Source: Candidatus Auribacterota bacterium | Lineage (GTDB): Bacteria; Auribacterota; Tritonobacteria; UBA1439 | Assembly (NCBI GenBank): GCA_026392035.1 | Contig: JAPLCX010000023.1 | Location: 1-40,982 of the forward strand | Length of the DNA stretch: 40,982 bases | Direction: 5' to 3' | Part shown: piece by piece, positions 188-18,543 of the stretch | How positions within the stretch are numbered: position 1 is the first letter of the stretch | Layout of the letters: the number at the start of each line of letters is the position of its first letter | Position numbers and translations under genes: made by a program | The notes under the pieces: generated by a model | What the model was told of the DNA's origin: nothing | Database searches by the model: none | What the model saw: only the letters and a program-made list of their open reading frames with translations

Positions 188-1114
188 TCACACGTACTCT
201 TTCAGGAATGAGGTCACGCGCTTCCGGTACTCATCCGGCTCAAGGATCACGGCCTCGTTGTGGCGCGCGCCTGCAACAATCCACATCTGTTTTGAGGCGC
301 GGATGTGGTCATACAGCCAGCGCGCGTGGCGTGCGTCGATATAGCTGTCCTTTTTGCCGTGTATGATAAAAACGGGCGTCGTGCGATTTTCCCTCAGGGC
401 CAACTCCAGCGTGAGGAGCTTGCGGCCCAGCTTCCTCTGTGACGCCTTAAGCCCAAAGAAGCTCAGGTAGGCGATTAAAAAACCGGGGAGCCTGTTGGCA
501 ATCCACGGGGGGAAATAGATCGGGGCCCATTTGCGGATGTAACTCACGAGCGTCCCCATCGTGGAAAAGGCGCCATCGCACACCACCGCCTTGATCCCCG
601 GGCTCCTGCCGAGCACACAGAGGCACGTCGTCGCGCCCCGTGAAACCCCGAAAAGGCCGATCCTCTCCGGATCGACATCAGCCCGCCCCTGGACGTACGC
701 GATGGCGCCCAGAAGGTCAAAGTATTCATTCTCGCTCGCCCACTGGGTGGGGTTGTAATTCCCGTTCTTCTCAGCATGCTGACCCCGAAAATCGAACGAG
801 AAAATGTTGTACCCCTCTTCAAGGAGGAACGCGCAATACCGTTCGTAGGAATTGAGGCCCGCGCCGACCTCGTGAGCGAAGATGATCGTCCCCGCCCCTC
901 CCGTGGACGTGCAGGGGACAAAGACCCCTTTGAGCTCCACGCCGTCAAGGCTCACGAACTTGACCACCTCTCCGGCGATCTCCCATTTGGTCTGGGGCGC
1001 CGCGGAGACAGTTGAGTTGAGGAACACGTTCGTGATCAAGCGTACGTACTTGACCGTGAACATAACCGCACAGACGAGGAGCAATGCCGCCGCGGCATTG
1101 ATACACCAGCTCAT
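188..1114 (-). CDS. membrane-anchored alpha/beta hydrolase
   Basis: A 308-residue alpha/beta hydrolase, probably a serine esterase, amidase or thioesterase. Residues 5-22 form one hydrophobic segment that would anchor it in the inner membrane with the catalytic domain outside the cytoplasm. The nucleophile elbow is GVSRG (Ser158), the likely acid is Asp256 in HGKKDSY and the base His285 in GARHNE, so the triad looks complete. The oxyanion region is AHEVGAG near residue 80. The start ATG overlaps the TGA of the upstream SDR gene by four bases (tcat at 1111-1114 on the plus strand), so the two are translationally coupled. It is the last gene of the minus-strand run. The substrate cannot be told from sequence; a role in releasing or trimming the locus product is inference from position. 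Confidence 0.85.
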   Translation of the reverse strand: MSWCINAAAALLLVCAVMFTVKYVRLITNVFLNSTVSAAPQTKWEIAGEVVKFVSLDGVELKGVFVPCTSTGGAGTIIFAHEVGAGLNSYERYCAFLLEEGYNIFSFDFRGQHAEKNGNYNPTQWASENEYFDLLGAIAYVQGRADVDPERIGLFGVSRGATTCLCVLGRSPGIKAVVCDGAFSTMGTLVSYIRKWAPIYFPPWIANRLPGFLIAYLSFFGLKASQRKLGRKLLTLELALRENRTTPVFIIHGKKDSYIDARHARWLYDHIRASKQMWIVAGARHNEAVILEPDEYRKRVTSFLKEYV

Positions 1115-2100
1115 TGTTCTGTTTCCCCCGATAGCCCGGCGAGGCCGAAGCGCGCAACAGTTCTCATCATGCCGTCTTCAAAACCGAGGAGGCGATTCCC
1201 CAGGAGGGACTCGGCTCTATTTCGGGTACAGATAGTATCACAACGCGACATTCTGATCTGTTCCAAATTGAGCGTGCCCTCACGTCGGAGCAGCCGGGCG
1301 CCGAGGCCAACGAGATAGGCGACCGGATAGGGGATGCCCACGATGCGGCGCTGAAGGCCCAGTGCCTTGATCAGAAGAGCGGTAATCTCCCTGAGCGTGA
1401 GTACGCGGGGGCCTCCCACCTCCCATACCTCGCGGGGGCAGCCGGGGGCAGCAATCGCATCGGTGATGCAGGATACGAGGTCACCTATGAAGATCGGCTG
1501 GAGGCGATTGCGTCCCGAGCGGACAAGAGGCACTGCCCTCCGACCCGCGGCCATCCGGGAAAGCTTCTTGATGATTTTGCTGTCCCGGGCCCCTGTCGTT
1601 TTCCCGAAGACGAGCGAGGATCTGATGACGATATATTCCAGGCCCGACCGCCTGATTTCTTCTTCCGCCTCCCACTTGGTCTTCAAGTAGTTGTTGCCTG
1701 CCTCCCCTGAAGCGCCGATGGCGCTCAGATACACGACCCGCCCCGCTCCTCCCGGACGGGTAACCGCGCACTTCCTTTTCGAGCCGGGAATCGCGGCCCG
1801 AAACGCCCGGAGGAGCAGTTGGGTCTTGCGTGTGTGCATGTCTTGGTAACCGCCGCGCTTCGGACGCTCGATACTTCCCAGGAGGTGGACGATTGTTTCC
1901 ACCCCTTCCAATGCCCGCAGGAGAAGAGCCTCCTCCTCAAGATTCGCCTCAACCACCTGCGCCCCCATCTCCGCGAGAAACGCCTGCTCGTCGGCGCCGC
2001 ACCCCCTCCTGACAAGCGCGCGGACGGCTATCCCTTCCCCGCAGAGTTTCTCCACGAGGTGCACGCCCACGTACCCGTTCGCGCCGGTAATGAGAATCAT
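1111..2100 (-). CDS. atypical SDR / NAD(P)-dependent epimerase-like protein (NDUFA9-type)
   Basis: A Rossmann-fold protein of the atypical SDR (NDUFA9/NmrA-like) type. The start is placed at the ATG at 2100 because the protein then begins MILITGANGYVG with the dinucleotide-binding GxxGxxG motif at its N terminus. A longer frame to 2175 would translate a hairpin repeat and is unlikely. The middle holds YLSAIGA and then a YxxxK-like NYLKTK pair followed by WEAEE, and VIRSSLVFG as usual for this family. Length from 2100 is 329 residues. It overlaps the downstream hydrolase by ATGA. The reaction is unknown: redox on a sugar or lipid intermediate, or electron transfer, are both possible. Confidence 0.83.
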   Translation of the reverse strand: MILITGANGYVGVHLVEKLCGEGIAVRALVRRGCGADEQAFLAEMGAQVVEANLEEEALLLRALEGVETIVHLLGSIERPKRGGYQDMHTRKTQLLLRAFRAAIPGSKRKCAVTRPGGAGRVVYLSAIGASGEAGNNYLKTKWEAEEEIRRSGLEYIVIRSSLVFGKTTGARDSKIIKKLSRMAAGRRAVPLVRSGRNRLQPIFIGDLVSCITDAIAAPGCPREVWEVGGPRVLTLREITALLIKALGLQRRIVGIPYPVAYLVGLGARLLRREGTLNLEQIRMSRCDTICTRNRAESLLGNRLLGFEDGMMRTVARFGLAGLSGETEQ

Positions 2101-2174
2101 GAATTCAAATCCCAAACCTGCCATCCGGCAGGCAAGTTCCAAACTTGCCCGCCATAGGCGGGTCCCAAATCCCA
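2101..2174. repeat. triple-hairpin element bounded by CAAATCCCA direct repeats
   Basis: Three abutting 6-bp stem-loops: CCTGCC/GGCAGG (2117-2132), CAAGTT/AACTTG (2133-2147) and CCCGCC/GGCGGG (2148-2162). They are bounded by identical 9-mers CAAATCCCA at 2106-2114 and 2166-2174. The element sits immediately upstream of the SDR start codon at 2100, so it would be in the mRNA leader if transcription comes from 3230 onward. Confidence 0.85.
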
Positions 2175-2243
2175 ACGATCATGTAAAAGGCATCAAGCGT
2201 ACAGGCGCTCTTATTCATTCTCACACGTTCTCCGAGATACGAA

Positions 2244-3230
2244 TCACGAACCCCGGCTTTTGAACCATTCAATTGTTTCCTGAAGGGCTCTCTCAAACGG
2301 AATATCCGGGCCGTATCCAAGTTCGCGTCTCGCTTTTGAGATATCGAAGGTAAGGTGGGTGTACATGAATTTCAGCCTGAACCGGTTGAGGAGGGGGGCT
2401 GATTTCAGCCTCAAGACCTTCGCGGTCAGCTCACAGAACTTGCACACCATGACGGCGAGAGGGTACGGTATGCTCTTGCGGGGTTGCGCACACCCCATCC
2501 CGTTCGCGATCCTGGTGATCAGATCCCTGCGTGTGACTGATGCGCCGTCGGTAACATTGTATACCTGGCCCACGGCGCGCGATGACCCGGCCGCGAGGAG
2601 CAGCGCCTCCGCAAGATTCTTCGCATAGACGAGCGTGAATGGATTCAACCCCCCGGCAACGTACGCGTACCTCCCGTTTTTCAAATAGGTAAGAATACGC
2701 GGAAACATCTGGCGGTCGCGCGGGCCATACACGTAGGGCGCCCTGATGACCGTCACGGACAGGCCGGTCCGCCCTGCGGAATCCCAGAGGAGTTTCTCGG
2801 CTTCTATCTTTGTGGTGTTGTAGTTGTCGCCCGTGTACACAAATGGCGCCGACTCGTCCAGATTGTCCTGCCTGTCCATGCCCAGGACCACCATTGAGCT
2901 CGTGTACAGGAATCTCTTGATCCGGGCGGCGGCGCACGCCTTGAGCAACAGCTCGAGGCCGTGGACGTTCACGCGCCTCATTTCCTCAAGACTCGCCCAA
3001 TCACTCACCACCGCCGCGCAGTGAAATACGATGTCCACGCCTCGCACGGCGCCACCGAGCGACTCCTCATCCATGAGATCGCCAGGCCGGAGCTCCACGC
3101 CGAGCGACCGCAGAAAGGCCGTATCGCTCCCGGGACGGACAAGCGCCCTCACCCGATGCCCCTTCGACACCAGGAGTTCAGCAAGATTACTCCCCACGCA
3201 TCCCGTCGCTCCGGTCACCAGTGCATTCAT
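2244..3230 (-). CDS. extended SDR, 3-beta-HSD/epimerase family (OleD/HpnA-like)
   Basis: A 328-residue extended short-chain dehydrogenase. The start at 3230 is chosen because it follows GAGGAA at good spacing and opens with MNALVTGATGCVGSNL, the NAD(P)-binding glycine motif. Residues in order: the D at the end of beta-3 (GDLMDEES), FHCAAVVSDW, YTSSMVVLG with the catalytic Ser, YNTTK (catalytic Tyr and Lys), then RAPYVYGP and a C-terminal substrate domain ending in LGYGPDIPFERAL. This layout matches 3-beta-hydroxysteroid-dehydrogenase-like SDRs such as OleD of bacterial olefin synthesis and the hopanoid-associated HpnA. It probably oxidises or reduces a hydroxy/keto group of a lipid intermediate. 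The exact substrate is not readable. Confidence 0.87.
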   Translation of the reverse strand: MNALVTGATGCVGSNLAELLVSKGHRVRALVRPGSDTAFLRSLGVELRPGDLMDEESLGGAVRGVDIVFHCAAVVSDWASLEEMRRVNVHGLELLLKACAAARIKRFLYTSSMVVLGMDRQDNLDESAPFVYTGDNYNTTKIEAEKLLWDSAGRTGLSVTVIRAPYVYGPRDRQMFPRILTYLKNGRYAYVAGGLNPFTLVYAKNLAEALLLAAGSSRAVGQVYNVTDGASVTRRDLITRIANGMGCAQPRKSIPYPLAVMVCKFCELTAKVLRLKSAPLLNRFRLKFMYTHLTFDISKARRELGYGPDIPFERALQETIEWFKSRGS

Positions 3231-3248
3231 GATGTTATTTCCTCTTTT

Positions 3249-3377
3249 GCCGCAGATGAACGCGGATTTCCGCAGATATGAAAAACGGCCCGTGCTGCAA
3301 TTTCCACGCAACTCATGACATGCAATAACACATTGAATTATATCTACCTGCGTTTATCTGCGTGTATCCGCGGCTTA
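3249..3377. repeat. inverted 'cgcagatgaacgcggat' intergenic repeat pair
   Basis: The left arm (about 3249-3279) carries cgcagatgaacgcggatt; the right arm (about 3342-3374) is its inverted, degenerate relative reading tgcgtttatctgcgtgtat. The same family recurs at 8196-8267, 15241-15321, 23091-23150 and 26753-26775. It fills the gap between the hydrolase stop and the SDR start. Confidence 0.75.
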
Positions 3378-4220
3378 TCATCTGTGGTTGTCGAGCCACC
3401 TCACCAGGTCCTCGTAATACTCATCCCGGCACGGGCCAAACTCCAGCGTGTGCCTCGCCTTCTCATAGATTTTCATGACCTTGTCGCCACATGCGCATGA
3501 ATGGAAGAGCTCTTTCACCGCGCCATTGTCAACAATCTGATCGCGCCCGGCAAGGAGGAGGAGGAAGGGGATGCGTATGCCCGGGAATGCGCTTTTTGCA
3601 CACCGCTCCAATCTCCGGCTCTCGAGGAGGAACCTCGCGGTCACGCGCCTCAGGCCAAACGCGTCCTCTTCTATGTAGTTTTGTTCGTCCGGATCATCGG
3701 TAAAAAGCGCCGGATCATCCAGGGGGATTACGAATTCCCTATCGTTCTTAAAAAGCAGCGCCATCGCCACGGCGAGCTTTGTCCATGGCGCGTAATCGCG
3801 GAGTGAGACAAGGCCGGGCACGGCAAAAATAAGACTCTTCAATTGAACCCTGCCGGCGACGGCAACCGCAGCCGCCAGCCGCCCTCCCCACGATATTCCC
3901 AGGAGGTGGACCGGCTTCCCGGGGAGGTCTCGCCCCGCGAGGCTGATAAAATGCTCCACATCCCCGATCCATCGCTGATAGCTCACGGGGCCCCTCATCT
4001 CCCCCCGGTTGAGGCCGGAGCCCCGGCGATCGGGAAAGAGCACATGATACCCCTTGAGGCAAAGATGCGCGCAGGTTTCGTCGTACCATGCACCGTGGCT
4101 GCGGATGCCGTGGATGCCTATCACCACGCCCCTGGGCGTTCGGGGATTCCATTCACGGTAGCGGAGCTTGACTCCGTCAGCGGCTGATGTCTCCTTTATC
4201 TCAGGATTCAACTCCTCCAT
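3378..4220 (-). CDS. alpha/beta hydrolase (monoacylglycerol-lipase-like)
   Basis: A soluble alpha/beta hydrolase of about 280 residues with no signal peptide or membrane segment, so presumably cytoplasmic. Numbering from a GTG two codons earlier (4226), the nucleophile is Ser112 in GISWGG, the acid Asp229 in LAGRDQ and the base His259 in KARHTLE. The oxyanion loop is HGIRSHGAWY, and FPDRRGSGLN is the strand typical of lysophospholipase/monoglyceride-lipase-like proteins (Hydrolase_4). The ATG at 4220 is preferred over the GTG at 4226, though neither has a well-spaced ribosome site. It may act as a lipase, thioesterase or amidase for the locus product; that is inferred from neighbours only. 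Confidence 0.85.
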   Translation of the reverse strand: MEELNPEIKETSAADGVKLRYREWNPRTPRGVVIGIHGIRSHGAWYDETCAHLCLKGYHVLFPDRRGSGLNRGEMRGPVSYQRWIGDVEHFISLAGRDLPGKPVHLLGISWGGRLAAAVAVAGRVQLKSLIFAVPGLVSLRDYAPWTKLAVAMALLFKNDREFVIPLDDPALFTDDPDEQNYIEEDAFGLRRVTARFLLESRRLERCAKSAFPGIRIPFLLLLAGRDQIVDNGAVKELFHSCACGDKVMKIYEKARHTLEFGPCRDEYYEDLVRWLDNHR

Positions 4221-4287
4221 ATCCACCTATAGGGTTCTCGCAAGTAACTACTGAGCAGTAATGTCGCCGCCGGCGTCCTCATTCCAA

Positions 4288-4326
4288 CTCCTGGCTCCTG
4301 ACTCCTGAATTCTGGCTCCTGAGCAG
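4288..4326. repeat. CTCCTG tandem-like repeat
   Basis: About five degenerate copies of (a/g)CTCCTG separated by 0-6 bases, in the gap between the racemase-like gene and the hydrolase gene. No coding capacity. Confidence 0.7.
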
Positions 4327-4337
4327 TTACCTTTCGG

Positions 4338-5513
4338 TTACTGATGCAGTTCAAATTTCTCCACCGTGTACTTATTCAATCGGGCGCGGTCTACCGTAAT
4401 GCCAAATCCGATCCCGCCTAAAGGCGGCGCCCATCCGCCGTAGCCGAACGTCAGGTCCTCCGCAGTCAAATTTTCTTTGAGAAGGTATCGATCATACGAC
4501 CCCTCTCTATGGCGTATGCCGGGGACGAGAAATGCAAAGTGGCGTCCCGCAGCCGAAAGGATCCCCGTCTCACCAACCTGGCACCCGAGTTGATAGCCGA
4601 TTCCCTTGGCGCGGAGCTCAGCGGCCATGCTCAGGGAAGCGAGGAAACCGCCGCATTTAGACAGCCGGATATTTACCACGTCGCAGGAGCGGCTGTCAAC
4701 CGCGTGTTTCAATTGAGCGGGAGAACAGACGGATTCGTCCAGCATGATGGGGACGTTCACCCTGGCCCTGATGAACGGCAGATCGTCCCTGCACGCCGGC
4801 GCGAGCGGTTCCTCCACGGAAGAGATACCGAGAGCCGACAGGCGTGGAATCACTCTGAGCGCAGTCGGGGTATCCCATGCGCCATTCGCATCAACCCTGA
4901 TATCTATCCCACGCCCCAGGAGCATCCTGGCCATGCGCACCAGAGCCACATCCCGTTTTTCTCCCCACCCCACCTTGAGTTTGACGGCTCGAAAGCCGTA
5001 GAGGCGGTACGTGATCAAGGATGCGGCGACGCGGCGCGCCGAACCACCGGAACACACCGCGCTGTACCGCACCCTGGCGGACCGCTCACCACACGGCGTG
5101 AGCCCCCGGATATGCGCCGCGAGATCTCCCACGCCGGCGCAATGCGATTTCATGAGCGCGTCGAGCACACTGAGACCCAGGGCGCAGCGGGCGGCGCCAG
5201 GGAAAATCGCCCCGTCGCCTTCGGCAGCTCCCTCCCACTCCTGAAGACGGCTCAGCCCATGCGCCGGCGATCGCCACTCCCCGGCGAGAAAGGAATAGTC
5301 GAGCCTGGCCAGGTACCGCACGGAGGAGGCCGGTGTTTCCCCGGTGACATATTCGCGCGGCACCCCTTCCCCGAAACCGCTCACCCCGCCGTCCGTGAGC
5401 GCCTCAACCACCACATTCTCCGCCGTGCTGCGCGTGGAACGCGAATGGGCAAAGGCGACTTTTAACGGCAGTCGAACATGATAGACGGTGATTTTTGTGA
5501 TGCGCACGATCAC
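4338..5513 (-). CDS. enolase-superfamily (MR/MLE) racemase/epimerase; N-acylamino-acid racemase or dipeptide-epimerase-like
   Basis: A 391-residue enolase-superfamily enzyme. The N-terminal capping domain (residues 1-140) is followed by a TIM barrel with the KxK pair Lys178/Lys180 (VKLKVG), metal ligands Asp208 (VDANGAWD), Glu234/235 (VEEPL) and Asp259/Glu260 (LDES), and the opposite-face Lys286 (RLSKCGG). Two opposed lysines are characteristic of the muconate-lactonizing subgroup: cis,cis-muconate enzymes, o-succinylbenzoate synthase/N-acylamino acid racemase and Ala-Glu (dipeptide) epimerases. The start is GTG at 5513. With a GH3 acyl-amido synthetase two genes upstream, racemising an N-acyl amino acid is an attractive role, but this is inference. 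No other menaquinone gene is nearby, so MenC is unlikely. Confidence 0.85.
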   Translation of the reverse strand: MIVRITKITVYHVRLPLKVAFAHSRSTRSTAENVVVEALTDGGVSGFGEGVPREYVTGETPASSVRYLARLDYSFLAGEWRSPAHGLSRLQEWEGAAEGDGAIFPGAARCALGLSVLDALMKSHCAGVGDLAAHIRGLTPCGERSARVRYSAVCSGGSARRVAASLITYRLYGFRAVKLKVGWGEKRDVALVRMARMLLGRGIDIRVDANGAWDTPTALRVIPRLSALGISSVEEPLAPACRDDLPFIRARVNVPIMLDESVCSPAQLKHAVDSRSCDVVNIRLSKCGGFLASLSMAAELRAKGIGYQLGCQVGETGILSAAGRHFAFLVPGIRHREGSYDRYLLKENLTAEDLTFGYGGWAPPLGGIGFGITVDRARLNKYTVEKFELHQ

Positions 5514-5623
5514 ACCCCCGATGAGTGAAAAGATAGATACGCCGTTGAACTGATCTGAGGGCAGAACACCAATCGCTCTCGCGGAGGGATGCCCGCCTCT
5601 CTCGCCCGCGCGAGTGTACCTGC

Positions 5624-6415
5624 CTATGGAATCGGCACCGTCACATAGCCGAAATGGTACGCGCTGTTTGCGCTATCGAAATCCGCCTCGGTGAGCCCGA
5701 CATCCGTCCGAAGGCCGTCGTAGAGGTACTTCTCGAGCAATTCGCCGCTCCATCCGTAGCTGGTCACCGAGAGCGGGTATCCGGTTTCTCTATCGAGCGC
5801 GAGCACTGTTCTGTGCGCGGGATACCCCGCCTTGCGAGGAAGCGTGCGCTCGAACAGATGCACCGGGCGCCCCCCCACCTCTCTTGCGCCGAGATAGCGC
5901 ACGCGTAAATCGCCATTGCGCTGCGCCCGCTCACACATCTGCACGAGGAGCGTGATGGTATTCCCGAGACCGGATTCCGTGATGGGCCTCGAGTTTCTGC
6001 GCATGGCGAGCGCGCCCGTAGGGTGGAGGGCAAAGGTGGGTGCAAAATAGTTGATCATCCCACCAAGATGGACGAGGAGCCTCCCGTCGTGCTTCCCCTC
6101 TGCGTACAGAGCCTCCCTGCCCTTATCGATATCGCCGATCCATTTCATGTACACCATGAACGGCTTTTTAAACTTGAATAATATATCCTCCTCTCCATAC
6201 AGGACCCCCCCTACCCGCTGCTGCTTATGGAATGTGGCCGTGTAATCCTGAACCGTTTCGTAGTTCTTCTGCGCCAGGTGCAGGAGCTCAATGAGATCAG
6301 GCTCGTTCGCTCCCCCTTTCGCCACCGAAGCACCTCCCGCCCACAGGAGGCCGCAGAGGCACGCTCCGACGGCACGCGCCCCCACCCCCATGCGTTTCAG
6401 CTCACGCTCGTGCAA
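5624..6415 (-). CDS. DUF1571 protein, LolA-like, exported
   Basis: A 263-residue protein with an N-terminal export signal (basic MGVGAR followed by a hydrophobic AVGACLCGLLWAGG), so probably periplasmic. The body matches DUF1571: YTATFHKQQRVGG, then LFKFKKPFMVYMKW, GREALYAEG and YFAPTFALHPTG. This LolA/LppX-like half-barrel often binds lipid chains. The first codon is TTG (6413-6415), preceded by an AGGGGG site that overlaps the stop codon of the GH3 gene ten bases upstream, so translation is probably coupled. An internal ATG at 6391 is the alternative. A role in carrying a lipid product across the periplasm is inferred from fold and position. LolA-like genes also occur in arylpolyene-type clusters. 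Confidence 0.8.
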   Translation of the reverse strand: MHERELKRMGVGARAVGACLCGLLWAGGASVAKGGANEPDLIELLHLAQKNYETVQDYTATFHKQQRVGGVLYGEEDILFKFKKPFMVYMKWIGDIDKGREALYAEGKHDGRLLVHLGGMINYFAPTFALHPTGALAMRRNSRPITESGLGNTITLLVQMCERAQRNGDLRVRYLGAREVGGRPVHLFERTLPRKAGYPAHRTVLALDRETGYPLSVTSYGWSGELLEKYLYDGLRTDVGLTEADFDSANSAYHFGYVTVPIP

Positions 6416-6424
6416 TGATACCCC

Positions 6425-8161
6425 CTATCGTTGCGATGAGGCGCCCCGGTCTTCTCCTCGCCCCGCACCCGGTTCCCCGGCAATCTGAAATCGCGCGCAG
6501 TGGTCAAGGAGCGGGCTCAGGTAGGGATGCTTGTACTGCTCCATCCTCCCCCCGCTCTTTTCTATGTGAGCCCGCTTATCGCGCTCAAACGAGCCCTCGA
6601 TGATCACCCTCGCCACCGGCGCCCCCAATCGCCCGGAATCCCTCTTGTTTTTGTACTCCATGTTCAGTTCCCTGAGCTCCGCATCGAATCGCGCGCCGAT
6701 CGATGCCAGGAGCCGTTCACCCCGATCGCCCGCGAACACGCCGTCGGGACGCTCCTCCAGGAGGACGAAGTAAAACGGCGGCACGTCCCAGCCTGGGCAC
6801 ACGGTAAACTGGGGGACCGAAAAACCCAACTGGCGCTCACACGCACGAAACGCCTCTACCACCTGGTGTTCCGAAATCTTCTCCCCGGTCAATGAGCTGA
6901 TGCGGTTCCCCTTGTGGAGAAACTTCAGGATGGGCGTTTCACCGAAATAGCCGGTCACCTGTACCACGTCCGAGATATTATAGCGGAAAAAACCGGATGA
7001 GGTGGTGAGGATTATGTAGTACTTCTCCCCCTCTCGCAGCTCGTGCGCGAGGAGGGTGTCTCCGCCCGCGCGCTCCTCACCGTATGGTGTGAACTCATAG
7101 AAATGGCTTCCGATGTCGAGCACGCCCCCGCGCGCTCCATCCTCCAGCGGGATGGTCATCCGCCCCTCCGACGCGATAAGGCCGGGATCCCTCAGCGGCT
7201 TCGGACCCCAGTACTCCCTGACCAGGTCGAGCCATGGCGTGAGCGTCCCCCCTGTCCAGCATCCGATCACGTTGAGCTCCGGCCACACATCGCGGGGCAA
7301 CAGCCGGCCGCGTTGGGCGAGAAGCCGATCGAGCCGTGAAGCCAGCGAGCGCTTCCTGCCCACGCGCGAAGCGAGCGCGCGTCCCAATGCAGGGTCAAGC
7401 CGCTCCGACACGGAGAGTGTTCCATCATACCAATCCTTTATCATGCGCCCCGCATTTTTCTCCAAACAGGCTCCCAGCGCCACGAGCGTGCTCGGGTTTG
7501 CAGCAATCAGGAGAGAGATCTTATGCTGCATCGCCAGCAGCGCAATGCAGTAATACTTGGCGTCGTAGTCATCGATCAGGTACACGTCGGGTGAGAGCGC
7601 GTATTTGAGGTTGGCGATCCTATTCTGCGATTCGGCGACCAGGCCCGTAGCCGCACCGCAGGGCACCCCCCGCTCCGTTTCTCTCTCCCGGCTCGGAGAG
7701 ATAATGTGCAGAATCTTTTGATCGATGGCATGGGGGTGATCGGCGAGCAGGCCCATGCCCCAGATAAAGTTTCCCTGCGCGAGTTCCCTGCGATACCTCC
7801 CGGTCACCGGTACATACTTTGGCGTCGCCGTGGTTCCGCTGGTCATGGCGAACATGAGGAGTTTTTCACCAGGGGGGAAGAGGATGTTCCGCTCGCCGCG
7901 TATAATCCTCTCTATGTACGGAGCGAGCGCTTCATAACCGACTATCGGAACAGCCCTGCGGTATCCCTCCGGTGACGCGATCTTTGAAAACAGGAAGCGC
8001 CGCCCGTACTCGGTGCCCGAGGCATACCGGAGTTTCGCGAGGAGCATCGCCCGCTGTGCAGCGGCACAGTTCGCCGCAGCGCGCCGGAATGCCCTCTGCG
8101 CTCTTATCCCGTGCAATCTCGCCCATCCGTACACGAGGGGCGTGAGCACCGTCCTATACAT
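6425..8161 (-). CDS. GH3-family acyl-acid-amido synthetase
   Basis: A 578-residue member of the GH3 auxin-responsive-promoter family, ATP-dependent adenylating enzymes that join a carboxylic acid to an amino acid or amine. Visible motifs are the P-loop-like TSGTT (107-111) followed by ATPKYVPVT, then GCWTGGTLTP, the SEG of LIASEGRMTIPL, and LTTSSGFFRYNISDVVQVTG, which corresponds to the YRYxxGDxxxV motif near the C-terminal domain. It starts at ATG 8161 behind a TGGAG site. Bacterial members are common in candidate phyla and planctomycetes but their substrates are mostly unknown. Here it lies between a ketosynthase/methyltransferase set and an acyl-amino-acid-racemase-like gene, which suggests amidation of a fatty or polyketide acid. 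Confidence 0.9.
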   Translation of the reverse strand: MYRTVLTPLVYGWARLHGIRAQRAFRRAAANCAAAQRAMLLAKLRYASGTEYGRRFLFSKIASPEGYRRAVPIVGYEALAPYIERIIRGERNILFPPGEKLLMFAMTSGTTATPKYVPVTGRYRRELAQGNFIWGMGLLADHPHAIDQKILHIISPSRERETERGVPCGAATGLVAESQNRIANLKYALSPDVYLIDDYDAKYYCIALLAMQHKISLLIAANPSTLVALGACLEKNAGRMIKDWYDGTLSVSERLDPALGRALASRVGRKRSLASRLDRLLAQRGRLLPRDVWPELNVIGCWTGGTLTPWLDLVREYWGPKPLRDPGLIASEGRMTIPLEDGARGGVLDIGSHFYEFTPYGEERAGGDTLLAHELREGEKYYIILTTSSGFFRYNISDVVQVTGYFGETPILKFLHKGNRISSLTGEKISEHQVVEAFRACERQLGFSVPQFTVCPGWDVPPFYFVLLEERPDGVFAGDRGERLLASIGARFDAELRELNMEYKNKRDSGRLGAPVARVIIEGSFERDKRAHIEKSGGRMEQYKHPYLSPLLDHCARFQIAGEPGAGRGEDRGASSQR

Positions 8162-8351: not shown

Positions 8352-9197
8352 CTATCGCTTCGATGCGACGACAATAGAATACACGCCGAGCGGATCGCTC
8401 CGTTGATGGAATTCACCAAAGCCGCACTCCTCAAATAACCTCAAAATCTTCCGAGGGGAGCGATAGTTCAGATGCCAGTTGAAAACCCTGCGCAGATAAC
8501 GGTCTACCCCGTGGGTATCGCGCATGCTGTTCACGAGAACGCTTCCGCCTGGGGGAAGCATGCGGTGGCTCACCTGAAAAAGCTCCTTCACCTGGTCATC
8601 CGTGAGGTATTCAAGGATGCCCACCATTTTCACGATATGTGGCACGACCTCCAGGAGGTGTTCAAGGTTGACCGCGTTCCCGGCGATGTAGCGCACCCGC
8701 CCCCTCAAACCCATCTCATCGGCCAATTTCTTGCCAAATTCAAACGCGTCGATGTCCTCGTCGATGCAATAGGCAAAAACCCTGTCGGTATTCGCATCTA
8801 CCATCGCCTCGAGCACGTTGAAGCCCGGCCCTGTGCCGATACCCACGATATGGACATCTCCCTGCACGCGATATTTATGGATGAGGTCCTTGAGCGCACT
8901 CACCGCCATCCGTCTGCGGTTGCGAGCGCTGAGCGTGAGCACCGCATCCTTGAGAATGCGCTTGTCGATCCAATCCCTCGGTTCTCGGTTCTCGTATGAT
9001 ATCCTCATGGCCCTCCATCCACCGGGCCGCAGGATCGATTCCTGCACGAGCGGGCTCCTGCTCGTGCTGAGAAAACCGGTGAGGATCTTTGCGGGGACAA
9101 TGTAATTCACCAGGGGATTCAAGATGGCGCGGTTGAATACCCTCTGGAGCAGGGGCAGCGTCTCATAGCGGATACCATCGATTTTAATGTACTTCAC
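8352..9197 (-). CDS. class I SAM-dependent methyltransferase
   Basis: A 281-residue Rossmann-fold methyltransferase. The SAM motif is VGIGTGPGFNVLEA (motif I), with CIDED as the acidic end of strand 2, GNAVNL as motif II, and a late LPPGGSVLVNSMRD motif. The N-terminal 90 residues carry YETLPLLQRVFNRA and other family-specific helices of unknown role. It starts at GTG 9197, six bases after the upstream ketosynthase stop, with the ribosome site inside that stop region. The acceptor is unknown; C- or O-methylation of a ketoacyl product is the natural inference. Confidence 0.85.
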   Translation of the reverse strand: MKYIKIDGIRYETLPLLQRVFNRAILNPLVNYIVPAKILTGFLSTSRSPLVQESILRPGGWRAMRISYENREPRDWIDKRILKDAVLTLSARNRRRMAVSALKDLIHKYRVQGDVHIVGIGTGPGFNVLEAMVDANTDRVFAYCIDEDIDAFEFGKKLADEMGLRGRVRYIAGNAVNLEHLLEVVPHIVKMVGILEYLTDDQVKELFQVSHRMLPPGGSVLVNSMRDTHGVDRYLRRVFNWHLNYRSPRKILRLFEECGFGEFHQRSDPLGVYSIVVASKR

Positions 9198-9203
9198 CGG
9201 AGA

Positions 9204-10493
9204 TCACCCCCCATGCCGGGCGAGCACCAGGCATACATTCTGGCCGCCGAATCCAAAGGAGTTCGAGAGCGCGATGCGGACGCTCGCCTCGCGCGCCCTG
9301 TTGGGCACGTAGTCGAGGTCACAGTCGGGATCGGGAAATTCCTGATTGATCGTGGGGGGGATGACGCCGCGCCCGATGGCGAGAAGGCAGACGGCGGCTT
9401 CGACCGCACCGGCGGCAGCGATGAGGTGTCCCATCATCGATTTGGTCGAACTCACCGGCACCTTTGTGCTGTGTTCGAGAAAAACCTTCTTAATCGCGAG
9501 CGTTTCAACTCTGTCATTGATCTGGGTTGACGTGCCGTGCGCATTGATGTAGTCCACCTGCTCCGGCCGGATGCCCGCATCCCGTATGGCGTTCTGCATC
9601 GCCTGGGCGGCCCCCCTCCCCTCGGGATGGATATCGGTAATGCGGTATGCATCGGAAGAACAGCCGTAGCCGAGGACCTCGCCGTAGATTTTTGCCCCCC
9701 GAGAAAGGGCGTGCCGCTCTTCCTCCAGGATGAGGATACCGGCCCCCTCGGCGAGCACAAATCCGTCCCGCTTGCGATCGAAGGGCCTGCTCGCTTTCTC
9801 GGGGTCATCGTTGCGGGTGGAGATCGCCGTGAGCAGGTTGAACCCGGCGAGGCCCATCGGATGAATCATCGAGTGAGCCCCACCCGTGAACATGACATCC
9901 GCATCGCCCCGCGCGATTATGCACGCCGCCTCCCCCATCGCCTGCGCGCTCGCGGCGCACGCGGTGAGACAGTTAGAGTTCGGCCCCTGCGCATTATACA
10001 CGTTTGCGATGTGGTATCCCGGCTTACTGGGCTCATACTCGATGTCCTTCTTGGCGTTGAGCATCTCAATGCCTTGGCGCAGGAATGTCGCCATATTCAC
10101 CGTATCCCCCTCCAGCGACTCGCAGATCCGGTGCGCCAACCAAGTGAAGCTCGGATCACCCTCGCCGCACCCGAGGTACACGCCTACCCGCACGGGATCG
10201 AGCGCGCATTCCTTGAGACCCGCATCGTCGTATGCCACGCGGGCCGCTGCGAGGGCAAACTGCGTGTGCACTCCAAGGGAATCAAGATCATCGCGCCGCC
10301 CCACCAATTCCACGGCATTAAATTCTTTCACCTGACCCGCAATCTTCGTGGGATAACCGGAGGCATCGAAACGCATGAGGCGCCCTATCCCGGAGCGGCC
10401 ATTCACAAGACTTTCCCAATTCTCCTCCACGCTGATTCCGAGAGGGGTGATGAGACCCATTCCGGTAACGACGACCCGCCGCCAATCACTCAT
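9204..10493 (-). CDS. beta-ketoacyl-ACP synthase, FabF/KAS II type, full catalytic triad
   Basis: A 429-residue condensing enzyme, slightly longer than FabF (about 413). It has the thiolase fold with nucleophile Cys179 (TACAAS), His319 (NAHGTST), Lys351 and His356 (SSTKSMMGH), and the gating loop NSFGFGGQN near the C terminus. It should perform decarboxylative Claisen condensation with malonyl-ACP. The start ATG at 10493 is six bases after the stop of a second, divergent ketosynthase. The two share the insertion around residues 115-165 (SFTWLAHRIC and following), which is not usual in housekeeping FabF, so they probably arose together and may form a heterodimer. No acyl carrier protein gene is visible in the window. 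Confidence 0.92.
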   Translation of the reverse strand: MSDWRRVVVTGMGLITPLGISVEENWESLVNGRSGIGRLMRFDASGYPTKIAGQVKEFNAVELVGRRDDLDSLGVHTQFALAAARVAYDDAGLKECALDPVRVGVYLGCGEGDPSFTWLAHRICESLEGDTVNMATFLRQGIEMLNAKKDIEYEPSKPGYHIANVYNAQGPNSNCLTACAASAQAMGEAACIIARGDADVMFTGGAHSMIHPMGLAGFNLLTAISTRNDDPEKASRPFDRKRDGFVLAEGAGILILEEERHALSRGAKIYGEVLGYGCSSDAYRITDIHPEGRGAAQAMQNAIRDAGIRPEQVDYINAHGTSTQINDRVETLAIKKVFLEHSTKVPVSSTKSMMGHLIAAAGAVEAAVCLLAIGRGVIPPTINQEFPDPDCDLDYVPNRAREASVRIALSNSFGFGGQNVCLVLARHGG

Positions 10494-10499
10494 CTTCGC

Positions 10500-11795
10500 T
10501 CAACTCACTTTCCGCAGCACAAGGCTCACGTTCTGCCCCATGAAGTCAAACGAATTGCACAGCGCACACGACACGGCTGCCGGCCGGGGCTGCGGGACAT
10601 AGTCCAGGTCACACTCAGGATCCCTCACTTCGTAGTTCATCGTGCAGGGGATCACCCGATGATGAATGGCCATCGCTGCCGAGATGAGCCCCATGGCTCC
10701 CGAAGCCGACGTCAGGTCGCCGATCTGGCCCTTAATTGAACTCACAGGGATTGAGTATGCCCGCCCACCCCAGACTTCCTTAATGGCCATCGTCTCCAAC
10801 CTGTCCGTAAAGGGGATTGAATTCCCATGGGCGCTGATGTAGTCGACCTCCGATGCCGCAATGCCCGCGTCCGCGACCGCAGCCCGCATGGCGCGTGATT
10901 TGCTTGACGTCTCGACCGCGCCCCCTGGGCTTCTCTGCATGTCCACCGAGCTTCCGTATCCGAGCAGTTCCGCGTAGATACGCGCCCCCCGCGCCCGCGC
11001 GTGTTCGATCTCTTCCAGGATGATGATCCCTGCCCCCTCCCCAATGACGAATCCGTCCCTCCTGGCGTCAAAGGGGCAACTCGCCATCTCGGGAAAATCG
11101 TTCCTCCGGGAGAGGACGCCAAGTTTGTGATAGCGGATCAGCTTGAGGGGGGTGATACATGAACTCGCCCCCCCCGTGATCACAATATCCGCCCCTCCCC
11201 GCGAAATGATGCGGGATGCTTCACCGATCGCATGCGCGCTCGCAGAACAGCCGGTGGTAATGGTGTTACTGGGCCCCTGGGCGTTATAATTAATCGAGAC
11301 ATGGGATGCGAGCATGTTGGGGAGCTGCTTGAGGAGCCAGAGGGGAAAGAGCAGGTGTATCCCCTCAGCGCCGAAGCGCGCCATATCGAATTGTCCAGCT
11401 CCATCCAGCGACCTCGCGATGGCCGGCGCGAGCTCGCATACATCGGTTGAGATCATTCCCGCGCCGAAGACCACACCTATCCGCGTGGGGTCAGGCTGGG
11501 GCTGGTCCAGCCGGGCATCCTCAGCGGCCTCTTTCGTCGCTGCAACGGCGAATTGCATGTCCCTCATCATTACCTTGAGGGACTTCCGTTTCTCAATGTA
11601 CTTGAGCGGATCAAAATCCTTCACCTCTGCCGCAATGGTGGTCGGAAACGTTGAGGCGTCGAAAAGCGAAATGTGCGAAACCCCCGATCTTCGGGCGATG
11701 AGATTCGACCAGTAGTCGTGCGTGCTCTGCCCGATGGGGCTGATCACCCCGATGCCCACGATGCCCACTCTTCTCTTATTCCCGGTCATTGCCAT
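10500..11795 (-). CDS. variant beta-ketoacyl synthase with the second catalytic His replaced by Asp
   Basis: A KAS II-like protein of about 431 residues if it starts at ATG 11795 (ATG 11789 is the alternative). The open frame runs up to 11969, but the added 58 residues are not family-like. Cys183 (TGCSAS), His323 (SAHGNS) and Lys355 (SSIK) are kept. The histidine of the KxxxGH motif is aspartate (Asp360, codon GAC at 10716-10718, in KGQIGDLT). The gating loop is NSFDFMGQN instead of NSFGFGG. These changes point to a specialised or non-elongating ketosynthase, perhaps partnering the canonical enzyme encoded six bases downstream as chain-length factors do, although chain-length factors usually lose the Cys instead. 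It is the first gene of the minus-strand run. Confidence 0.87.
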   Translation of the reverse strand: MAMTGNKRRVGIVGIGVISPIGQSTHDYWSNLIARRSGVSHISLFDASTFPTTIAAEVKDFDPLKYIEKRKSLKVMMRDMQFAVAATKEAAEDARLDQPQPDPTRIGVVFGAGMISTDVCELAPAIARSLDGAGQFDMARFGAEGIHLLFPLWLLKQLPNMLASHVSINYNAQGPSNTITTGCSASAHAIGEASRIISRGGADIVITGGASSCITPLKLIRYHKLGVLSRRNDFPEMASCPFDARRDGFVIGEGAGIIILEEIEHARARGARIYAELLGYGSSVDMQRSPGGAVETSSKSRAMRAAVADAGIAASEVDYISAHGNSIPFTDRLETMAIKEVWGGRAYSIPVSSIKGQIGDLTSASGAMGLISAAMAIHHRVIPCTMNYEVRDPECDLDYVPQPRPAAVSCALCNSFDFMGQNVSLVLRKVS

Positions 11796-14937: not shown

Positions 14938-15484
14938 CCGCCGCCCCTCTTCCGGTACGGGCGATGATTGACGAGCGCTCGAACGCATCGCAGCTCGGGA
15001 TCGCTTTTTCAGACGGGTGAATGAGACGGGGAACATGCCACCGTTCAGGCCATGAAAGGGAATGCACTGTTACTTTCGCCTGCACCCGCCCCACGGGTGA
15101 ATTTTATCAAATGTCCCAGGCGAGAGCCGGGAATTCGGGCATCCACTGGCAGGGGCGTGAGTCATTATCCGCACGGGCATGAGCGTGCCGGAAGGGTAAG
15201 GGGTCACTTATAGAGGGGGGCCACTGATCCCGCTAAGCGGGACGGATTATGACGGATATTCACAGATGAAAAGAAAGCTTCATCTGCGGCCATCCGTGTG
15301 GTTATCCGTGAAAATCCGTGGCGAACATCATTTACCGTTACCCCTGCAAAACTGACCCATTACCCGGAAGGTAATTTATACAGGGAAACAAAACGTCAAA
15401 AATGATACTATGGTGCGATCAGGAATAACCGGGCGGGTCCACGCTCGCGGAGCGCCCGGGTCCGCCGTCTCATATGACTGCCAT
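14938..15484. other. divergent intergenic region, 547 bp
   Basis: It lies between divergent comEC and the lipoprotein gene and I see no convincing gene in it. It holds a small hairpin TCCCGC-taa-GCGGGA (15228-15242) and an interspersed-repeat block (15241-15321). Promoters for both flanking genes must lie here, but no clear -35/-10 pair stands out. Confidence 0.6.
15228..15321. repeat. hairpin plus 'cggattttcacggat' repeat block
   Basis: Stem TCCCGC/GCGGGA is followed by repeated acggat(t/a) words, then CACAGATGAA and its inverted mate TTCATCTGCGG around aagaaagc, then ATCCGTG words. It is the same family as at 3249, 8196, 23091 and 26753. Confidence 0.75.
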
Positions 15485-16426
15485 ATGAAAATAGCGTTCC
15501 ACGAATTCGCACTCACGGGAAAGGGAATCACCTCATTTCCGGCAGTGGCCATATGCCTCCTCATATCCGGCTGCGCCTCGAAGGCACCGCTCCACGCGGA
15601 TGCGCGCTACGAGCCCTATGAAAACCTCCTGGAAATCGTGAGCGATCTGCAACGGCATGCCAACGACAATGCCTACCGCTTCCCGGCCCCCCGCGACCCG
15701 AGCGGCCAGAACCTCTACAAGGCCAGCTTGATACGACTTCTCAACTTCGAAAAGATATACCCGCGGCGCATGCCCGACGTCGTGAACTTCAGCAAGGGGA
15801 TCTGCATGGAGCGGCTGCACGATTACGACGGCGCGCTGAGAGCCTTCAAGCACGTTGCCGAGAGCGATTCTCCGTTGAGGGAACAGGCGAGCAGCACAAT
15901 GGCGATTCTTGAAAAATTTAATGACCTCGCGAACTACCGTATCGAGAAAAATAATGTCAGCGATTATCTCACGGAACTGGAATTCAAGCTTGACACCTGG
16001 GGAAAGCTCATCGGCGAGGTGACGGGGACCCCGTACGAGTGGCTGGCGCGCGAGGATGAAGAGAAGGTCGAGCAGCACCTCGCGGAGTTCGTGGCGCAGA
16101 ATTATCTCGTCATCAAGAATGGCATCGAGAACGCACTCAATCTCTACCGACAGTTGACGATCAAACACGCCCAGAGCAAGAACATCAATCTCCACTACCT
16201 GAACTGGGCGGACTTCTGCGCCCTTCTCTCGAGGCGCTACGCGCAGGAAGCAGATCCGCGGAGCCTCGAATTCGACATGGAGACGTTCAACAAAACAGCG
16301 GATGCCGCGATACGCCTCTACAGCCTCGTCGCACAAAAAGACGGGGCAACAGAAAAAGTGGAGGCACTCGGGAAGCTCCAGGCCTTCAACGCGTTCATCG
16401 CGAAGATTCAGGGTGAGAGCGAATGA
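15485..16426 (+). CDS. predicted lipoprotein with helical repeats
   Basis: A 313-residue protein of unknown function. From ATG 15485 it has a lipoprotein signal: basic start, hydrophobic SFPAVAICLL and lipobox ISGC with Cys30 as the lipidated residue. The upstream ATG at 15410 would bury this signal behind 25 residues and is not preferred. The mature part is helical with a TPR-like pair around FSKGICMERLHDYDGALRAFKHV, as in BamD-type or cell-envelope scaffolds. The stop overlaps the ATG of the next gene (ATGA at 16423-16426), so the two proteins are made together and probably work together at the outer membrane. Confidence 0.75.
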   Translation: MKIAFHEFALTGKGITSFPAVAICLLISGCASKAPLHADARYEPYENLLEIVSDLQRHANDNAYRFPAPRDPSGQNLYKASLIRLLNFEKIYPRRMPDVVNFSKGICMERLHDYDGALRAFKHVAESDSPLREQASSTMAILEKFNDLANYRIEKNNVSDYLTELEFKLDTWGKLIGEVTGTPYEWLAREDEEKVEQHLAEFVAQNYLVIKNGIENALNLYRQLTIKHAQSKNINLHYLNWADFCALLSRRYAQEADPRSLEFDMETFNKTADAAIRLYSLVAQKDGATEKVEALGKLQAFNAFIAKIQGESE

Positions 16427-18543
16427 GGAGAATTTTCGACCTCTCTTTTTTCACCGCGCTGGCGCTCATGGCATGGCTTCGTCTCCCGCAGGGTTCCTGC
16501 CACGCATCCGAAAGCCCCACGCCCCCTGCCGCTCCGCGCTCTCCGTCCTCCGACATTGAGCAGCACGTCTGCCGCGCGATCTCGTTCGCCTATCTCAATA
16601 AATCGGAAGACCTCGAGAAAGAGTACCTCTTTTTCAAGGGCATGGACAACTTCATGAACGAACAGGGGCACGCGGCCACCGGCCTGAGCGACAACCTTCT
16701 TGATCTGATGCTGAGCGGCATCAGGGACCGGGATGAGTTCATGGAGGCCCAACGCACGATCCTCAGTGAGGCCCCTGATGAGGAACTGCGGCGCCGGGTA
16801 AATTTCAGGCTCACCGACGAGGTCAGCAGCGCCAATTCGCTCCTCGCCACGGATCGCTACAACCGCTTCGCGTTCATATTCAATACGTTCGTGAGGCCGC
16901 TGAGTCTTCTCGCGGTCGGCTATTTCCCCGCGCTGATTGATTCGGGTGTCGCAACGCTGCTCAACTTCAGCAAACTCACGGAGCTCAGCGTTGAAGAGAA
17001 GAAGGCGCTCGTCCTCTACAAGCAGTTCCTGGATCAGTACCCCCATAGCGACAAGGCAGAACTCCTCCGCCACCGCGCCACGGCGCTCGATCAGAAGCGC
17101 ATCAAGAGCTGCTACGAGCGTGAGCTCGCGCTCGCCGAGGAGCAGATATCCAAAGGCAACTTCTGGCAGGCGCAGCAATATTTCAAGAACGCCCTCGCAT
17201 ATTGCCCAGGGGCCGGCAAGGCATCCGAGGGGCTCACGCGGGCGCGGGAGTTAGAGTCACAGAGGAACAGGCTCAAGGGAAAAACACTCGAACCCGCAGA
17301 CAAAACCAGGGAGCTCACCCCCGATGAGGCAGAAGCTGATTACCTGAATATCCTCTACGGCGCCGTGGCGGGCGATCCCGACGCAATGATCCGTGAAGCG
17401 GATACGCTGATCAACCGTCACCCGAAGAGCCCGTATGTCCCCCACGCGCTCTACGCCGTCGCGGTCGCCCGTGATATGGATGGGGATCGCGAGGCGGCCA
17501 TGGAAATCATGCGGAGGATCGCCGGGAAGTACCCCGCCTCTCATATCGGGCGGCACGCGCGCGCGTACCTCGCCGACCCCGAGTACAACCTCCACCTCGC
17601 GTTCCAGCGTTCGAAAATGCAGCACGGTAAGCAGACCACAAAGTACATCGCGATGGGACCCGATTTTGCCAAATCGAACGTTATCCTTGGCACCTCGCGT
17701 GTCATCACCCAGGGGCTCGAAGCATTCCAGAGCCTGGGGACATTCAACGTGATCGCGCTGGTCCTCCGCGGCGTGAACTCGTTCACAAAAAATCCCGTCT
17801 CCGAACAGGAGATTATTGACTCCGGCCTCAACTACCTGCGCCGCTATCCTGATTCACCTGCTGCACCGGAAGTACACCTCAGGCTCGCCGGGGCCTATGC
17901 CAAGAGGCAGAATCTTTCGAAGGCGGTCTATCACTACGCGGCGAGCGGAAGGGTTTCCCACAGGACGCTTGAGAAGCTCCGCGAGAAGGCGGCCCAGCAG
18001 TACCTCGATTTTGCCAACGCGACGGAGAACCCACAGGAAAAACTCCGGTGCTACGAAACCATCCTTGACGACTATCCCCGCAGCAAGGCAGCGGCAAAGG
18101 CACTTGAGGCGCTCTCCGCGCTCGAAAAGGTGAAGGAGCCCCTCTTCACGCTCGACAAGGCGACCCTCGTCGAGTACCCGATCGTGTTCAAGCTCACGGC
18201 GCTGCATATCGGTCCGCATCTGCTCGATGGGAATCTTGAGAATGGTGAACTGGATTCAAAAGGCCTGTACTCTCCCCGGCGCGGGAAAATCACCCTCGTG
18301 TTCAAAGAGCAAAAGGGCGTGCGAGAAGAGACGATCGATATCGACTACCCAACGTACAAAGGGCTCATGGCGTTCGCGGAAGAGATCAGCTACAGGAAGG
18401 GTCTGAGCGAAAAGACGGGCAAGCAGGTCGCGAGCAAGTTCCCCGTCGAGTTCAGGGGAACGGTCGGCGACGACGGCGTGTTCGTGTATCCCCGCCTCAA
18501 AATCAAGGAGTATCAGGAGAAGGATCTGTATCTGTATAAATGA
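16423..18543 (+). CDS. exported TPR-repeat protein
   Basis: A 706-residue protein with an N-terminal signal peptide (MRRIFDLSFFTALALMAWLRL, then a likely AXA-type cleavage near CHASE). Several tetratricopeptide-like repeats are visible, for example KQFLDQYPHSDKAELLRHRA, ADTLINRHPKSPYVPHALYA, LNYLRRYPDSPAAPEVHLRL and YETILDDYPRSKAAAKALEA. These resemble the outer-membrane-assembly/cell-division TPR class (BamD, YbgF). The last 130 residues form a separate, beta-rich domain (LYSPRRGKITLVFKEQ). It overlaps the preceding lipoprotein gene by four bases. The partner and substrate are unknown; scaffolding of an envelope complex is the best guess. Confidence 0.75.
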   Translation: MRRIFDLSFFTALALMAWLRLPQGSCHASESPTPPAAPRSPSSDIEQHVCRAISFAYLNKSEDLEKEYLFFKGMDNFMNEQGHAATGLSDNLLDLMLSGIRDRDEFMEAQRTILSEAPDEELRRRVNFRLTDEVSSANSLLATDRYNRFAFIFNTFVRPLSLLAVGYFPALIDSGVATLLNFSKLTELSVEEKKALVLYKQFLDQYPHSDKAELLRHRATALDQKRIKSCYERELALAEEQISKGNFWQAQQYFKNALAYCPGAGKASEGLTRARELESQRNRLKGKTLEPADKTRELTPDEAEADYLNILYGAVAGDPDAMIREADTLINRHPKSPYVPHALYAVAVARDMDGDREAAMEIMRRIAGKYPASHIGRHARAYLADPEYNLHLAFQRSKMQHGKQTTKYIAMGPDFAKSNVILGTSRVITQGLEAFQSLGTFNVIALVLRGVNSFTKNPVSEQEIIDSGLNYLRRYPDSPAAPEVHLRLAGAYAKRQNLSKAVYHYAASGRVSHRTLEKLREKAAQQYLDFANATENPQEKLRCYETILDDYPRSKAAAKALEALSALEKVKEPLFTLDKATLVEYPIVFKLTALHIGPHLLDGNLENGELDSKGLYSPRRGKITLVFKEQKGVREETIDIDYPTYKGLMAFAEEISYRKGLSEKTGKQVASKFPVEFRGTVGDDGVFVYPRLKIKEYQEKDLYLYK

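Follow-up and report, generated by a model that had tools for sequence, protein, structure and literature searches.

A candidate chain-length-factor-like ketosynthase partner with aspartate at the second catalytic histidine position in Candidatus Auribacterota

What role might a FabF-like protein have that keeps its nucleophilic cysteine, carries an aspartate in place of its second catalytic histidine, and is encoded next to a paralogue with a complete active site? The question is raised by a contig of a draft Candidatus Auribacterota genome (GCA_026392035.1, JAPLCX010000023.1), whose 40,982 nucleotides were analysed as a whole and are called the window here. The gene for this protein, KS-beta, occupies positions 10500 to 11795 of the minus strand, from an ATG at 11795 to a TGA at 10502-10500, and encodes a FabF-fold protein of 431 amino acids with the motifs GCSASAH (Cys183), AHGNS (His323), IKGQIGD (Lys355 and Asp360) and NSFDFMGQN. 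In alignment with E. coli FabF, Cys183 (codon 11247-11249) corresponds to Cys163, His323 to His303, Lys355 to Lys335, and Asp360 to His340; codon 360 is GAC (10716-10718, read from 10718 to 10716). That alignment offers no alternative histidine for the second-histidine site, and a misalignment was ruled out by the gap-free alignment of the KxxxGD block. The first-pass annotation had described a protein with its cysteine and first histidine kept, the second histidine changed to aspartate and an NSFGFGG gate altered to NSFDFMG, and the sequence agrees with it on all of these points. In the gate, FabF Gly399 is replaced by Asp and Gly401 by Met, while Phe400, Gly402 and Asn404 are retained together with the partner residue Asp265; the gating phenylalanine thus survives, and it is the hinge of the gate that has changed. 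Two further replacements, absent from the first-pass annotation, are those of FabF Thr305 by Asn and Thr307 by Ile.

KS-beta therefore lacks the features of a condensing FabF homodimer subunit, having Cys-His-Asp rather than Cys-His-His and DFMG rather than GFGG, and its score of 410 bits against the NCBIfam fabF model is under that model's cut-off of 493.75. Its AF2 model (pLDDT 90.2) has the thiolase-type KS fold with a TM-score of about 0.9 to FabF, and the 50 best PDB matches to the model are nearly all FabF, the remainder being mitochondrial KSs. The PDB entries 9s5h and 9s5i contain two KS-like chains.

The neighbouring gene, KS-alpha (9204 to 10493, minus strand), starts 6 bp downstream of KS-beta on the same strand, an order that is constant in the family. 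As the first-pass annotation had stated, it encodes a paralogue with the normal catalytic set: the motifs TACAAS, AHGTS, KSMMGH and GFGG are complete, and its fabF score of 504 bits is over the cut-off. An intact Cys-His-Lys-His set is present in all 32 KS-alpha sequences compared, and an intact KS-alpha was found in every genome examined for it. The two genes are unlinked in Pirellulales and still co-occur there, KS-alpha (58-59% identity) lying on another contig. An AF2 model of a fused KS-beta-KS-alpha chain, made by reading through the in-frame TGA at 10500-10502 (7 rows), was uninformative, with a pLDDT of 43.7 and a pTM of 0.36.

Since the locus comes from a contig of a draft genome and GAC is one base from CAC, Asp360 might be thought to reflect a sequencing error, a misassembly or a decaying pseudogene. 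The first-pass annotation had recommended checking whether homologues keep the aspartate. KS-beta orthologues are present in all five other genomes of the same family at 70-74% identity, and each has Cys-His-Lys-Asp, none a histidine at this site, in an intact frame within the same operon, with a gate consensus of NSFD[FY][ML]GQN and an intact KS always adjacent (5/5). Constraint on KS-beta is close to that on KS-alpha (216 of 431 columns invariant across the family versus 235 of 428; same-family identity of KS-alpha 72-77%), and the gene is thus not a pseudogene. The five orthologues refute the error reading, which we regard as having next to no probability left; on this comparison the unusual active site is a lasting feature of the bacterial family, neither an error nor a recent mutation. 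Outside the family, other KS-beta proteins have His, Asn, Phe or Tyr at this position.

A motif pattern taken from the KS-beta family alignment, run against 84,980 species genomes, gave 63 loci, which belong to Auribacterota, Planctomycetota and Omnitrophota. In a tree of 104 rows, obtained by a quick search without bootstrap, KS-alpha forms a clade of 32 rows (support 95) and KS-beta one of 46 rows (support 99), and a common ancestor of the two apart from FabF has a support of 83 only. One basal KS-beta branch consists of 14 Planctomycetota rows with an intact Cys-His-Lys-His set; the remaining 32 rows, all of them degenerate, group in one subclade (support 96). The sister lineage L042, whose cluster is otherwise similar, shares the aspartate and has lost the cysteine (Ala-His-Lys-Asp); most Omnitrophota have [Ala/Ser/Pro/Thr]-[Ser/Ala/Cys]-Lys-Phe, Pirellulales have Glu-[His/Asn]-Lys-Asn, and Gemmataceae, including Limnoglobus roseus, have Asp with His or Ser and Asn. 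By parsimony, the cysteine was lost at least five times and His340 at least three times within KS-beta. Because L042 has the aspartate without the cysteine, the change of His to Asp probably preceded cysteine loss in its lineage. The KS-beta clade thus presents a graded series, from intact Planctomycetota proteins through Auribacterota (Cys kept, His changed to Asp) to proteins without Cys and both His, in most cases beside an intact KS-alpha, and it touches on the question of how chain-length factors (CLFs) arose from working ketosynthases. Read against these relatives, the window's KS-beta is one step in a piecemeal loss of catalytic residues and a variant of a known enzyme type.

Several loci in this material deserve separate mention. 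In the Planctomycetota loci L078-L084 both subunits of the pair have the full catalytic set, possibly a stage before decay; in the Pirellulales loci L126-L133, KS-beta has Glu at the cysteine position and Asn at the second histidine, with KS-alpha on a different contig. The window's own genome encodes a third unusual ketosynthase (G000:C80, L159:6865-8130, minus strand; motifs GCSTAID, AHGNS, KSMTGQ and NSHSVGG) that keeps Cys, the first His and Lys and has Gln as its second His; it has no KS partner, overlaps a B12-radical SAM gene and lies near a FadL/TodX-type porin.

In KS dimers, residue 133 of one monomer extends to the pocket of its partner. At this position (FabF Phe133; Trp153 in the window, codon 11337-11339, minus strand) all 46 KS-beta rows have Trp, and KS-alpha has mostly Lys, Arg or others. 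Position 108, which lies where the acyl pocket ends and is a gating isoleucine of that pocket in FabF (PMC7138838), is Glu, Asp or Lys in 32 of 32 KS-alpha rows and nearly always aliphatic or Met in KS-beta. Both Trp133 in beta and the charge at position 108 of alpha are fixed even where KS-beta is still intact, so the asymmetry seems older than the catalytic loss, which suggests that the dimer was asymmetric before KS-beta lost catalysis.

We consider it probable (roughly 0.72) that KS-beta forms a heterodimer with KS-alpha as its CLF-like subunit, in a pathway of the highly reducing type II polyketide kind or one for specialised fatty-acyl chains; KS-beta is most likely a non-elongating partner that still carries its cysteine. 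A non-elongating role in a KS/KS heterodimer had been one of the possibilities raised by the first-pass annotation, and comparison supports it well through the fixed pairing with an intact alpha subunit, the beta clade and the asymmetric interface residues. KS-beta, with its FabF-like fold, would pair with KS-alpha, which would be responsible for every acyl transfer, for malonyl decarboxylation and for condensation, and Trp153 would close or shape the KS-alpha acyl tunnel as a pocket floor, limiting chain length. KS-beta itself should be unable to condense, because a carboxylate stands at the site of the malonyl-decarboxylating histidine and the gate and oxyanion loop is disturbed by the Gly-to-Asp and Gly-to-Met changes. 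Asp360 should repel the carboxylate of the malonyl group and could not serve as the decarboxylating/oxyanion histidine. Half of the oxyanion hole is supplied by the Phe400 amide in FabF (PMC7138838), so the loop change would be expected to disturb it; the crosslinking of a FabF G399A mutant equals that of wild type (PMC7138838), and therefore replacing this Gly by Asp is not necessarily fatal by itself. Cys183 would be a leftover or structural residue, already gone in the sister lineage.

The retained cysteine is the basis of two other readings. KS-beta might be an active transacylase, in which a His323-activated Cys183 takes a starter acyl group from ACP or CoA and passes it to KS-alpha or ACP, Asp360 and the altered gate preventing malonyl decarboxylation and self-condensation. 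Consistent with this, Cys183, His323, Lys355 and Asp360 are invariant in the six family members, the counterparts of FabF Asp265, Asn404, Phe400 and Gly402 are largely kept in the family, and non-condensing KS-like proteins with Cys, His and Asp exist: mupirocin MupB is reported to have a Cys-His-Asp triad with no link to condensation (PMC10098928), and CerJ/ChlB3 are KSIII-like acyltransferases with Cys113, His296 and Asp301 (PMC9573744). However, about half of all KS-beta positions are invariant, so that cysteine retention is weak evidence; the nearest aspartate-bearing relative, L042, has Ala for Cys, its cluster being similar in other respects; the loop from which half of the oxyanion hole comes has changed; and the CerJ/ChlB3 triad, made of the second histidine and an aspartate five residues on, is arranged differently. 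We hold a transacylase to be rather unlikely, and its more specific form, in which the Auribacterota protein was repurposed as a Cys-His-Asp transacylase that loads a dedicated starter onto KS-alpha and so gives the heterodimer a priming and an elongating centre, to be about as unlikely.

The presence of nucleophile, first histidine and lysine might also be taken to mean that KS-beta condenses or decarboxylates malonyl groups by an alternative mechanism, with Asp360 substituting for His340. Against this, both histidines are indispensable for malonyl decarboxylation according to Rattray et al. 2009, citing mutagenesis (PMC2649909), the aspartate also occurs without the cysteine in L042, and every genome examined for it has an intact KS-alpha; we judge this very improbable. 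KS0 domains and CerJ/ChlB3 are comparable in that they combine a KS fold with changed catalytic residues and do not condense. What is lost in KS0 domains is the first His, that of the HGTGT motif (PMC4661987), and this identity was rejected since KS-beta keeps His323; identity with CerJ/ChlB3 was rejected because KS-beta is of the FabF type and has its Asp at the second-histidine position itself, not five residues later.

The CLF-like reading can be set against known pairs. KS/CLF heterodimers of type II polyketide synthases (PKSs; actinorhodin type, and the aromatic KS/CLF of Streptomyces plasmids, L140/L141) likewise combine an intact KS with a residue-losing KS-fold partner, encoded by adjacent genes, with ACP and KR in the pathway. 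The window has neighbouring KS genes, one intact subunit and a partner without one catalytic histidine (Asp360); it differs in that the beta gene is upstream of alpha, the cysteine and first histidine are kept, and FabA-like dehydratases belong to the pathway. CLFs usually lack the cysteine and the first histidine, and the first-pass annotation had used the kept cysteine to distinguish KS-beta from them. All six family members, the window's protein included, do have the cysteine, but that contrast fails at the family level: L042 has the aspartate without it, and it is absent from most other degenerate beta proteins, so that its retention seems to mark one stage of a CLF-like series. In the best tree KS-beta groups with planctomycete KSs apart from the Streptomyces CLFs, a placement that is not significant; an AU test did not reject KS-beta and actinobacterial CLFs as one clade (p-AU 0.144), and for this reason we do not claim an origin independent of actinobacterial CLFs.

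Highly reducing type II PKSs (aryl polyene ApeO-ApeC, ishigamide Iga11-Iga12) share a KS pair with KR and hotdog dehydratases and make unsaturated chains, and they and the type II PKS-like cispentacin AmcF-AmcG also have a catalytically disabled partner. ApeC (240 aa in E. coli CFT073) is roughly half length, whereas KS-beta has full length and an active site that can be recognised, and the tailoring genes here (GH3, MR_MLE, DUF1571) are different. Rattray et al. 2009 (PMC2649909) described FabF paralogues from planctomycetes in which active-site residues are substituted (R. baltica NP_866153 and NP_865682; K. stuttgartiensis Kuste3606, Kuste2805 and Kuste3348). The residues given there for NP_866153 (Glu163, His298, Leu300, Asp302, Lys328, Asn333) match the Pirellulales KS-beta rows (E, H, HGLSD, K, N), compared by this published signature alone. 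That study viewed the paralogues as possible recruiters of unusual substrates, not as beta subunits belonging to a pair, and no Cys-His-Lys-Asp protein is among them; the divergent paralogues of 2009 would now gain a concrete role. KS-CLF-like pairs have been catalogued in Planctomycetes and Omnitrophica, many of the non-actinobacterial ones being classed as FAS-FAS pairs, and the parts of that catalogue consulted list no Auribacterota and give no active-site residue analysis (PMC10132072). Ladderane-type clusters have been reported in non-anammox phyla including Omnitrophota (PMC9902471).

In Planctomycetota and Omnitrophota, genes for a FabA-like dehydratase (DH1), KR, ACP and a second FabA-like dehydratase (DH2), sometimes with a phosphopantetheinyl transferase, lie immediately upstream of KS-beta; this DH1-KR-ACP-DH2-KSb-KSa synteny is extended in many of them by abH/GH3. 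KR, hotdog dehydratase and ACP adjoin the KS pair in L042-L045, L077 and L156-L158. In the window's family the set is on a contig other than that of the KS pair: in the window's genome contig C97 carries DH1-KR-ACP-ACPS-DH2 at a distance of about 8 kb from the housekeeping fabF/acpP, and in three relatives it is likewise away from the pair. KR, hotdog dehydratases and ACP are thus available to the pathway, as in highly reducing type II PKSs. No enoylreductase was recognised in the KS-pair clusters, and an unsaturated chain is therefore likely.

All genes of the window's operon are on the minus strand. KS-beta and KS-alpha are followed by a methyltransferase (Methyltransf_20, 8352-9197), a GH3-type acyl-adenylating amide ligase (6425-8161), a DUF1571 protein (5624-6415; its L044 homologue also matches LolA_like), an enolase-superfamily racemase/epimerase-like enzyme (MR_MLE, 4338-5513), a lysophospholipase-like hydrolase (Hydrolase_4, 3378-4226), two NAD-dependent SDRs (2244-3311, HpnA/OleD-like, and 1111-2175) and an alpha/beta hydrolase (188-1114) that is directly behind KS-alpha in related clusters. 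The GH3 ligase, MR_MLE enzyme, DUF1571 protein and hydrolases of this stretch (188-8161) are conserved behind the KS pair. GH3 enzymes make acyl amides; the nearest NCBIfam model to this one is lyso-ornithine lipid synthetase, and the match is far under its cut-off. The gene content suggests a so far uncharacterised product, an N-acyl amino acid or acyl amide; its chain would probably be polyene-like, and the GH3 enzyme would then couple it to an amine or amino acid. The same genes flag such a pathway in poorly known phyla.

Elsewhere in the window, two adjacent plus-strand genes (15410-18543) encode proteins of 338 and 706 amino acids, the former with no Pfam match and with conserved homologues in L038 and L040, the latter with a weak TPR match only. 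A minus-strand gene at 28085-30814 has ResIII, helicase and RE_endonuc domains and resembles a type III restriction subunit.
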